Part shown: piece by piece, positions 39,995 through 48,909 of the stretch
How the letters are laid out: every line of letters begins with the position of its first letter
How positions within the stretch are numbered: position 1 is the stretch's first letter
From: Pleurotus djamor
Lineage: Eukaryota > Basidiomycota > Agaricomycetes > Agaricales > Pleurotaceae
NCBI GenBank assembly: GCA_029747585.1
Contig: JAPEVF010000174.1
Coordinates: 1 to 64,000 of the forward strand
Reading direction: 5' to 3'
Length of the DNA stretch: 64,000 nt
The notes under the pieces: model-generated
What the model was told of the DNA's origin: nothing
The model's database searches: none
Seen by the model: the letters and a program-made list of their open reading frames with translations, nothing else
Program-made: the position numbers and the translations under genes

Positions 39995-40402
39995 ATGTCG
40001 ATGCAAATATTGGGCGAACAGGTGCGTCTTGCACATTATCTAGCTCACGATCCATTTCCTGAAGTCATTCAACTAGGCTACTGAGGAGAAAGCCGAGAAT
40101 GCTCGTCTCTCATCCTTCGTTGGGGCCTTAGCTCTCGGCGATCTCGTCAAATCTACTCTCGGGCCAAAAGGCATGAACAAAATCCTTCAATCCGCCTCAA
40201 CAGGCGAGATTAACGTTACAAACGACGGTGCTACGATCTTGAAGTCGATCCAGCTCGACAANTGCAGCTGCCNAAAAATCCTTGTCAACATCTCAAAAAG
40301 TGCAGGACGATGAAGGTTGGAGATGGGACAACATCGGTCACGGTGCTTGCTGCCGAGTTGTTGAGGGAGGCGGAGAAGTTGATCTCTCAGAGGATTCATT
40401 GA
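39995..40402 (+). pseudogene. CCT2: T-complex chaperonin subunit beta, 5' fragment
   Basis: Exon 1 (39995-40021) encodes MSMQILGEQ. Exon 2 from 40077 continues with the group II chaperonin start: ENARLSSFVGALALGDLVKS, LGPKGMNKIL, and the nucleotide-binding NDGATILKSI and DGTTSVTVLAAELLREAEKLI. The normal protein is about 530 residues; here it ends after about 115 codons (ISQRIH then TGA) exactly where the 414-base arm begins. Four one-base insertions sit in a 60-base stretch: N at 40262 and 40273, an extra A near 40298 and an extra G near 40315. These look like read errors, but the loss of the rest is real in this assembly. CCT2 is essential in yeast, so an intact copy should exist elsewhere or this is a misjoin. 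Confidence 0.85.
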
Positions 40403-40802
40403 CTACCCATATATATATGCATACATAGACTAATTGATAACTGCGGCCAACCCCTTCTGTTTTTGACCGAGAAATTAATGGATTCAGCAGCAACAGTTGC
40501 AACAGTCCTACTCAACTTGACTAAAAGTAAGTAGCTTCTGAACTTGCACAACCATTGACATACTCTCTCTGTGAGCTGTATGTAACAGAATTTTTGTCTT
40601 CGCCTGGCTCTCTTCTCTGGTAAAGATAGTCCAAGCTATGCTTGGGACTTATTTGGGTGAATACCTGCTGGCCACGGTATTCGAAGAATCTTGTCAATGA
40701 GCTCATCCCATTGCACTCCCACTGTACCTTTTGGCTTTGTCATACACCAGGAGCATATTGCTAGCACATGGTGATAATGATGTAAGAGGTACAATGATAG
40801 AT
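40389..40802 (+). repeat. Left arm of 414-base inverted repeat
   Basis: This segment is repeated in reverse complement at 48496-48909. Apart from one mismatch (ATGG/ATGT at about 40769) and one N in the right arm, the two look identical. The outer end reads AGAGGATTCATTGACTACCC; its first 11 bases are also the last codons of the CCT2 fragment. The arm contains no coding frame of note. Long near-identical arms are known from Mutator-like elements, but no target-site duplication or transposase was seen. Confidence 0.9.
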
Positions 40803-41401
40803 TTGGCATTGGCTTTATCGCTGTATGTGCTTGTTCATTATTGTAGACATGTCTAAGACATAAAAGAATGGTACAACAGCTGGTTGTGAAGTTGTGATCT
40901 TTTGGAGGCCTCCAACTCAGCTTCCTTGGAGATGTACATTTGAGCGGAACTTTAGGGTAGAGAAATAAATAATCAAGGTAATTTCTATCCACGCTTTTAA
41001 TGGGGAATGATGGTGAGTTACCCTTGCTTGATTGGCAAAGTCACTGGTCCCCAGTCAGTCAGTATCCATCGCTCGTCAAAAGTACTGATATGCCGCTGGT
41101 ATGCTGCAGATTGAGCACCTATCCGTTGGAAATAATGGGAGGGAATTAGATTGTACAAGATCTTAGTAGTCTGTCTGTCTTCATCCACACTTGACATTCA
41201 TATCTCTGCATTCATTCCGGTGAGTGATGTATTATCTAATCCTTAAATTTCTGGATATGTATGTAGTCATTGGTTAGATTATCATGTGGCCATGGCTGAA
41301 TTTGAATTTGTCAGTCACTACATCTGCTTAAGATAGAGTAGCCATACCAAGGTAATGAGTGGTGCTGTATTGAATCAATTGCGCCCTTGAGGACAGTTAT
41401 T
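40803..41401. other. AT-rich spacer
   Basis: Between the left arm and the copia coding remnant. No gene signal. Confidence 0.3.
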
Positions 41402-46419: not shown

Positions 46420-47855
46420 ATGACCGCTCAAGCCCTCAATACGATGCCCACCACTGACACGGCCGGTGAAACAAACTGGCAAGCGGAAGCCTTTTCTGCA
46501 GAAGCCTATTTTGCAACACAACCACCACCGGCTTCCCTGGATCATGATGTTTCGGCTGTCCGTGACTTCATCCACAAGCAGCTCAATCAGAACAGGAATG
46601 TTGTACTAGTGACAGTCAGTTGTATTCAGTTGCATAAAATAACTGTCTTAGTTACCATGTTTCATAAAACAGAGTGGAGGAACAACAGTACCATTGGAGC
46701 TCAATGTGTATGGATTTCCTAAGAACCCACCCCTATATGCTTCTGAACTCTGTCTGACCCTTGATTAGTGTCCGTTTCTTGGATAACTTCAGTGCAGGTT
46801 GGATGAATGTTATTCAACAATGGCCATAAAATCTCATCTTCATTGGGCAGGAACTCGAGGTGCAACATCTGCGGAATACTTTCTGAAAGCTGGCTATGCT
46901 GTCATCTTCATGCATCGCCAATTCAGCCTCCAACCCTTCAGCCGGCATTACTCTCATTCCACCAACCCATTCCTTGATTTCCTTGAGATAGAGCCAGAGT
47001 CAGATGCTGCATCCCCCGGAACAGCATCTTCACCCCAAATCTGTGTTGCCAAGGACAAGCACCAGGACCTCCTTTCAGTCCTTTCAGCATATAAATCTGC
47101 CCATGCAGAAGGGTTACTACACACATTGACATTTGTCACTGTCAATGACTACTTATGGCTACTTCGTGCCATCAGTCAAGAACTATCTGTACTAAGGCGC
47201 AAGGCCTTATATTACCTTGCTGCTGCAGTTAGTGATTTTTTCTTGCCTCGGCAGAAAATGGCAAGTCCCATGTTTCTCTCATTTTTCTTCTGCCCTCATT
47301 GACTTCATTTGTCTTAGTCTGAACATAAGATTCAGTCTGGCAAGGGGAGTTTACACATAGAAATGGATCAAGTACCCAAGATCCTGAAATCCATGGTTGA
47401 TGAGTGGACAAAAGAAGGATTTATAGTTTCATTCAAGGTATGTTGCCTGACTCCACTCCACCATTGCCCTTAGTCTCAACAAATCTAAGCAAAGCTCAAC
47501 ACACTGACTATTGATTTCTAAGCTTGAAACAGATCCAGCCCTTCTCATTCCCAAAGCCCGAGCTGCACTCAAGCGATATGGCCACCAAGTGGTGATTGGG
47601 AATGATCTACATACCCGGAAGCATCAAGTTGTTTTTGTCACTCCCAACCTGAAGTCATTGACATCATCCAAATCCCCTAAATCGATTGTTGATGATGAAG
47701 ATCCCTCCAATTTCACTGAAACATGGGTAAGAATTGATGCAACATCCAGTTCTTCCACAGATCTCCATCATCATCAATCAAAAGAAATTGAAGAAGACAT
47801 TGTCAAAGAGCTGGTGGAGAGACACAATGTCTGGATTAGAGATGTGGGGATATAG
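46420..47855 (+). CDS. CAB2: Phosphopantothenate-cysteine ligase
   Basis: Six exons (46420-46614, 46673-46707, 46769-46797, 46851-47260, 47318-47437, 47523-47855) give 373 residues. The enzyme joins 4'-phosphopantothenate to cysteine in coenzyme A synthesis in the cytosol. Recognisable parts are the nucleotide-binding start VVLVTSGGTTVPLE, NVVRFLDNFSAGTRGATSAEYFL, the fungal/animal insert ending in LYYLAAAVSDFFLP, and the late HQVVIGNDLHTRKHQVVFVT segment that contacts the substrate. Length is as expected for fungi. The intron after exon 4 begins GCAAGT and ends TTAG, a GC-AG intron; using it restores the frame exactly. No stop or shift is seen, so it should be functional. Confidence 0.9.
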
Positions 47856-48495
47856 ATAGTTTTTCTTTGCACATTCCATGCAGTGTGGTAAGATTGTTAT
47901 GTAATGACATTGCACTGGTTAAACACAGGCTTCCTAAACAAAACACTGGTGTTCAGAGGGAAGAGCCCAAGGTCTCAGAGCAGTATTCAGATGTTGCTTC
48001 TATTGGTAGTCAGTCAGTCACACAGTGCTAGCATTATTGGTTGCTTTTCAATAAAAGCAAATCTGTTAGGGGACACTGCAGCTGCTCATATACCCCCANC
48101 CAGCATGTCAAGATAAGCTTGACATTGCAACCTTTGGGTGTAGGGGTTATATTGCATGGCTGGTGCATACATAAGTCCCCTTACAGGTCTAGATTGACTC
48201 GATTCATTGTGGATGCGCCTATCACTATATTAATCACAGAACAACGGATTTTCTCTTCCAGACTTGGTGCAACCCTGCTCCTTTGTATGAATGGCTCAGC
48301 CCCCAACCTTGTGGTTGTTGATCATGATAAAGAGGGTGAGCCATACCTCAAATGGGCATGGAAATTATACCATGCCTCAAAGCACTCCATTGAAGCCACT
48401 AATACTTTTTCAAGGCCTGTGAGCAGCTCAATGCATAAGCCAGAGAGAAAGCAGCAGCAGAGGGGAGGCAGGCAGGACAACCATCTCCAGAGCAC
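47856..48495. other. Spacer between CAB2 and right arm
   Basis: AT-rich, with one N near 48100. An open frame at 48041-48595 overlaps the arm and has no family signature, so it is not called. Confidence 0.4.
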
Positions 48496-48909
48496 ATCTA
48501 TCATTGTACCTCTTACATCATTATCAACATGTGCTAGCAATATGCTCCTGGTGTATGACAAAGCCAAAAGGTACAGTGGGAGTGCAATGGGATGAGCTCA
48601 TTGACAAGNTTCTTCGAATACCGTGGCCAGCAGGTATTCACCCAAATAAGTCCCAAGCATAGCTTGGACTATCTTTACCAGAGAAGAGAGCCAGGCGAAG
48701 ACAAAAATTCTGTTACATACAGCTCACAGAGAGAGTATGTCAATGGTTGTGCAAGTTCAGAAGCTACTTACTTTTAGTCAAGTTGAGTAGGACTGTTGCA
48801 ACTGTTGCTGCTGAATCCATTAATTTCTCGGTCAAAAACAGAAGGGGTTGGCCGCAGTTATCAATTAGTCTATGTATGCATATATATATGGGTAGTCAAT
48901 GAATCCTCT
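48496..48909 (-). repeat. Right arm of 414-base inverted repeat
   Basis: Reverse complement of 40389-40802. The N at 48609 corresponds to an A in the left arm, so here the N is an uncertain base and not an insertion. The outer end reads GGGTAGTCAATGAATCCTCT and then continues into sequence unlike CCT2. Confidence 0.9.

Follow-up and report, generated by a model that had tools for sequence, protein, structure and literature searches.

The window analysed here, namely bases 1–64,000 of the Pleurotus djamor contig C501 (80,429 bases, in an assembly of 55.86 Mb and 1413 contigs), is very probably a chimera with false joins at both edges of a tract of deviating composition. Three pieces would have been fused: a left piece of normal GC content (1–40399), a CpG-poor middle piece rich in transposable elements (TEs; 40389–51923) and a right piece, again GC-normal, that begins at 51912. 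A chimeric contig was one of four readings that an earlier note had offered for an island seen in this DNA, and it is strongly supported by the fact that the sequences cut at the joins are found unbroken elsewhere with other neighbours: the chaperonin gene CCT2 is uninterrupted on contigs C601 and C1077, the CpG-poor side continues on C980, and the GC-rich side recurs at C501:65.66 kb. The middle piece would come from the fungus's own TE compartment and be unremarkable there; it contains a copia fragment, a copy of TAD3 without its SET half and a copy of CAB2, and its right end would be continued by C980-like sequence. Most likely, no element that carries host genes is required, and the island is an artefact that encloses ordinary DNA of this compartment. 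Draft assemblies of two haplotypes contain chimeric contigs fused at short shared words. The present case resembles them in that pieces of unlike composition and with unlike neighbours are joined at 11–12 bases while unbroken versions exist elsewhere, and it differs in that two joins in less than 12 kb mimic a bounded insert. The features on which the argument is built are listed below.

39994–40399, plus strand: 5' exons of CCT2 (TCP-1 beta; TIGR02341), start codon placed by eye, cut mid-exon; part of the left parent
40389–40399, no strand: left join, 11-base microhomology AGAGGATTCAT, common to CCT2 and the right-arm locus
40389–40805, plus strand: left arm, whose outer end is the left join
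41401–43801, plus strand: internal copia fragment, 98–99% identical to two copies on C1004
44849–46019, minus strand: TAD3 deaminase half without the SET half, by comparison with C575; DNA homology 44846–45998
46420–47855, plus strand: CAB2 (phosphopantothenate-cysteine ligase; Pfam DFP), six exons, GC-AG intron at 47261–47317
48063–48186, plus strand: MITE-like repeat of about 123 bases with near-inverted ends; copies of 88–94% on many CpG-poor contigs
48493–48909, minus strand: right arm, with AT-rich sequence on either side
49264–49709, plus strand: stretch matching C1004:1–446 (1 substitution, 1 N)
49704–51923, plus strand: stretch matching the minus strand of C980, to about C980:25814
51912–51923, no strand: right join, 12-base microhomology GATGCTTCTTCT, common to C980 and the GC-rich right parent
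51912–56643, plus strand: GC-rich right parent, compared with C501:65655 onward (about 92% over the first 3.9 kb)

The composition of the tract sets it apart from the remainder of the window. All 11 of the 1-kb bins between 41,001 and 52,000 have a CpG observed/expected ratio of 0.15–0.45 and a GC content of 0.398–0.488. In the 52 bins outside the tract (bin 40,001–41,000 was excluded from this comparison as mixed), the CpG ratio ranges from 0.47 to 1.23, being at least 0.70 in 51 of them, and GC content from 0.461 to 0.532; the single low bin is 11,001–12,000, with a ratio of 0.47. Both edges are sharp and lie near 40.4 and 51.9 kb, and they would be artefacts because both joins are, in all probability, false. 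The earlier description of an AT-rich, CpG-poor tract with abrupt edges is therefore accurate. The change on the right falls at about 51.92 kb and not at the end of the right arm (48909): the right arm lies within the tract, and the AT-rich DNA is unchanged beyond it.

At the left edge, the flank is part of a gene. TIGR02341 is matched at 40074–40301 and at 40295–40411; the sequence up to 40399 covers approximately the first 117 positions of the model, and the matching then ends. The rest of CCT2 is uninterrupted on C601 and C1077 (collinear, 97.6% over 3.4 kb), and since these are two versions that are about 97% alike, the assembly seems, from its sequence, to contain two haplotypes. A search of the whole assembly with the interval 40000–40400 found it in three places only (the window, C1077 and C601), and the left piece of C501 was the sole upstream partner that it yielded for C601. 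The latter starts at window position 40041, and C601:1–355 corresponds to 40041–40399 without a single substitution, the differences being limited to three single A residues inserted in the window and to three columns with N, of which C601 contributes one and the window two; over the same interval C1077 has 6 substitutions, so that the overlap at the left join is one within the haplotype of C601. Given an overlap free of substitutions and no other upstream partner found, C601 is likely to be the true continuation of the left piece, and the simplest reading is that the join of CCT2 to AT-rich DNA is false.

The right edge lies in sequence that is continuous on C980. This stretch includes a gag frame with a zinc knuckle (50878–51792). 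BLAST extends the C980 match to 51935, and its end was set at 51923 by the shared word; the alignment of 50003–51935 contains 7 substitutions, 4 columns with gaps and 2 with N, and the part that follows GATGCTTCTTCT accounts for 1 of these substitutions and 2 of the gap columns. Beyond this word C980 remains CpG-poor for at least 1.5 kb, while the window becomes CpG-normal. An 89-residue piece of C980 located past the right join had no match in Pfam, retropepsin included, and for this reason only CpG-poor continuity is claimed for C980 there. To the left of the second copy of the GC-rich side, at C501:65.66 kb, the sequence (C501:64155–65655) is CpG-normal. This copy and the right parent differ over their first 800 bases by 3 substitutions, by 4–27 differences per 100 in the next 800 and by 0–19 in later bins. 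It should be said against the proposed reconstruction that, in the window itself, the right join is accompanied by no cluster of N and no cluster of indels, and that the origin of the right parent is uncertain, its first 0.8 kb or so being nearly identical to a second copy on the same contig. The earlier reader had overlooked that the left flank is an interrupted CCT2 and that the right edge is a break in a sequence continuous on C980.

Because the joins use shared words of 11 and 12 bases, the likely cause would be a chimeric read or a merge over a short overlap. When 2,000,000 GC/AT junctions were sampled at random within the window, 5 reached 11 matching bases and none reached 12. Two points count against this account: microhomology of this size can also arise by real microhomology-mediated repair, and two or three false joins within 12 kb are many for one contig. 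A real rearrangement has therefore to be weighed, in which microhomology repair or a translocation placed an 11.5-kb CpG-poor segment into CCT2, beside a GDSL-lipase array, in one nucleus. The microhomology at both joins would agree with such an event, as would the existence of CCT2 in two versions, with which one nucleus could bear the loss. Nevertheless, the flanks belong to different loci, since C601 and C1077 continue CCT2 and neither matches the window from 51912 onward; moreover, the left piece is the C601 version, which leaves the rearranged form without a haplotype to belong to, and C601 would be deprived of its upstream partner. We consider a rearrangement of this kind very improbable. 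Were the joins nonetheless real, a CpG-depleted 11.5-kb TE block with the SET-less TAD3 and CAB2 would sit inside the essential gene CCT2 in one nucleus of the dikaryon, and the intact CCT2 of the other nucleus would make the loss of this gene bearable, an arrangement that we regard as very improbable. For work that draws on the public contig, the consequence would be a CCT2 annotated as truncated, a spurious synteny and a spurious element with host genes; islands of this kind can be checked cheaply by searching the rest of the assembly for the interrupted neighbouring gene and by determining how long a word the two sides of the edge have in common.

CpG-poor tracts with shared repeats are present on many contigs (C2, C525, C567, C575, C1004, C1336 and others), and on C2, C525 and C575 they adjoin CpG-normal genes; on C2, CpG falls about 1 kb past a CpG-normal match to the CCT family. 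Cytosine methylation is probably what depleted the middle piece of CpG. TE-directed methylation in Pleurotus is reported in a review (PMC7862722), and the CG-methylated TE regions described there share with the middle piece a depletion of CpG in retrotransposon-rich tracts that hold genes; the difference is that the species here is P. djamor and that CpG depletion is read from the sequence alone. Within the middle piece, the enclosed copia fragment mentioned earlier is indeed present, as an internal piece with the domains RVT_2, rve and gag_pre-integrs, and its matches to C1004 stop at both of its ends (41401 and about 43801).

Two other ideas about this compartment were considered and discarded. 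One was a further chimeric join at 49704–49709. The five bases at 49705–49709 (AAGAA) are an empty site: a copia LTR element has inserted at the corresponding place on C1004, where the left flank is followed by the start of the LTR, and on C980, where the end of the LTR is followed by the right flank; the LTR on C980 measures 691 bases and has the ends TGTTGAAA and TTTCAACA. A clean empty site of this sort argues that the window is sound at this point. The other was a link to the B mating-type region, in which deep allele divergence is expected. Matches to STE3 (PF02076) were obtained on eight contigs (C642, C498, C1031, C10, C788, C630, C796 and C37), a set that includes no CpG-poor contig met in this work, so that linkage of such contigs to the B mating type is not supported, a result that bears on linkage within the same contig and not over longer distances.

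The two genes had been described as intact. This is true of CAB2, whose six exons are complete and encode 373 amino acids, with one GC-AG intron, and are matched by the P. djamor protein ONZ45_g7426 (CAB2); it is not true of TAD3, which is without the SET-domain half of the copy on C575. A search for further copies, as the earlier note proposed, found one of each in the assembly, TAD3 on C575 and CAB2 on C1004. The DNA homology of TAD3 to C575 ends mid-exon at 45998, and over the shared half 277 of 326 residues are identical (dN 0.08, dS 0.29–0.32). On C575 the SET domain (PF00856) precedes the deaminase, and one open frame of 210 residues links both; SET also appears in the precomputed Pfam list of 93 of the 120 TAD3 relatives listed (counted by hand). 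Since the SET half is absent, the window copy is, as far as these comparisons indicate, a truncated duplicate relative to that on C575, with its deaminase part open. The CAB2 copies of the window and C1004 share 78.5% of their amino acids over 354 positions, their introns align poorly, and their divergence is larger (dN 0.14–0.15, dS 1.2–1.5). The possibility that both genes are diverged alleles of one block, separated by a single event, was rejected: the dS values of the two pairs are too unequal, the introns of TAD3 align while those of CAB2 do so poorly, and no allelic partner was found for the SET half of C575.

The proximity of the two genes is probably not ancestral, judging from genome comparison, because TAD3 and CAB2 lie on contigs of different size in all 12 of the other species compared; these were picked by hand as species represented by a single contig in each of the two lists, one assembly per species being assumed and further shared species remaining uncounted. 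TAD3 and CAB2 cannot be regarded simply as natives of this locus, given the second copies on C575 and C1004 and the separation of the pair in the 12 species. Should the middle piece prove contiguous, the interval 43.8–49.2 kb included, it would still contain two housekeeping genes as diverged copies within CpG-depleted DNA.

An origin in another fungus, by horizontal transfer or as contamination, would explain why the composition changes abruptly, and would fit a CAB2 that, among the matches listed, is at most 77% identical to that of other Pleurotus over 94% of its length. Nevertheless, in a tree of 26 rows (24 of them chosen from 120 relatives listed) the CAB2 copies of the window and C1004 are sisters (97/90) and fall in a clade with other Pleurotus (100/99). 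As for the TAD3 half, the nearest relative found is the one in the same genome, and none of the 120 relatives listed exceeds 55% identity. Given also that normal genes directly adjoin CpG-poor tracts on C2, C525 and C575, the transfer that had been put forward finds no support for CAB2, and a foreign origin is extremely improbable.

The inverted, nearly identical arms that had been reported are real: 40389–40805 and 48493–48909 align over 417 nt at 99%, with two substitutions (at 40771 and, at the inner end, 40803) and one N. Pack-MULEs are known for long inverted arms around gene sequence. A transposon with terminal inverted repeats (TIRs) of this type, with the arms as its ends and TAD3 and CAB2 as its cargo, would account for long near-identical arms around gene copies, which is the likeness between the two systems. 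The rest of the evidence separates them, for the bases before 40389 (CTCTC) and after 48909 (CATTG) form no target-site duplication, the AT-rich DNA goes on past the right arm, and the left arm begins at the join itself. Furthermore, the arms have no related ends elsewhere: against the 55.9-Mb assembly they gave three matches, both arms themselves and one piece of 48 bases at 85%. No transposase domain was detected by Pfam in any of the 20 stop-to-stop frames of at least 80 amino acids that overlap 40389–48909, in which the matches were to deaminase and copia domains, plus two below threshold. The Mutator-like or Pack-MULE proposal is thus not sustained; in its simple form a TIR transposon is refuted, and we attach hardly any probability to the Pack-MULE-like version. 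With the Helitrons of P. ostreatus, reported to carry captured genes (PMC4289320), the window shares the presence of gene copies within TE-rich Pleurotus DNA, and it differs in that no helicase domain occurs in the same 20 frames.

With regard to the chimeric contig, two options exist for the arms: they may be a genuine inverted repeat of about 414 bases that the join has cut, or the left one may be a reverse copy of the sequence at 48.49–48.91 kb. An inverted duplication of about 414 bases may thus have occurred inside the AT-rich piece. According to the second option, CCT2 was fused, in a chimeric read, to 48.49–48.91 kb in minus-strand orientation, and the left arm merely copies the right one, a proposal to which we assign somewhat less than an even chance. 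One internal substitution between the arms (40771) and the additional join that the inner end at 40805 would require are at odds with it. In its favour, AGAGGATTCAT is common to CCT2 and to exactly the right-arm locus in reverse reading, the arms are a near-identical pair without a further full copy, and their length of about 414 bases resembles the end overlaps of C501 with C601 (355) and with C1004 (446).

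The second copy of TAD3, in locus L038 on contig C575 (C575:4414-8567), appears to form one gene with the SET domain beside it, since a single open frame of 210 residues bridges the end of the SET domain and the start of TAD3, and since, by the precomputed Pfam list, both domains are present in 93 of the 120 listed relatives. This would be a possible SET-TAD3 fusion, extending across the Agaricomycetes. Among the features considered here are the following.

L038, about 1507-3155, minus strand: SET domain and TAD3, with the linking open frame
Window 47261-47317: GC-AG intron of CAB2
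Window 48063-48186: repeat of about 123 bases, with near-inverted ends CTGTTAGGGGAC / GTCCCCTTACAG
Window 49705-49709; L079 (C1004) 446/447; L077 (C980) about 414: copia LTR insertion site
Window 51912-60102 and C501:65655-75722: tandem duplication, with GDSL-lipase-like sequence within

Within the C575 gene, the deaminase half is CpG-poor, whereas the upstream sequence is CpG-normal. The switch lies near position 7.4 kb of the contig, inside or beside the gene.

The TAD3 of record P0210, labelled Pleurotus ostreatoroseus, shares 44% identity with the window TAD3, and polypore TAD3s among the 120 listed relatives are at least as near to the latter. Judging from these sequences, the species label of P0210 may be a misidentification.

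The deposited CAB2 model (272 aa) splices around the GC-AG intron and thereby lacks the C-terminus and another part of the protein; the copy on C1004 has a GT donor where the window copy has GC. Copies of the 123-base repeat are found on many CpG-poor contigs and, on C1336, C1270 and C1004, they are paired at a spacing of about 400 bases. The copia LTR insertion is dimorphic: the window carries the empty site, and filled ends are found on C1004 and C980, with a 691-base LTR (ends TGTTGAAA...TTTCAACA) and a 5-base target duplication, AAGAA.

Pieces of the tandem duplication are 76-92% identical, except for the first 0.8 kb, which is near-identical. In the left flank, a lone 1-kb bin (11001-12000) is CpG-poor (o/e 0.47), while the rest is normal. 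Clusters of N (12 positions at 9846-9998 and 4 at 36759-36908) may point to additional joins or to other regions of low quality.
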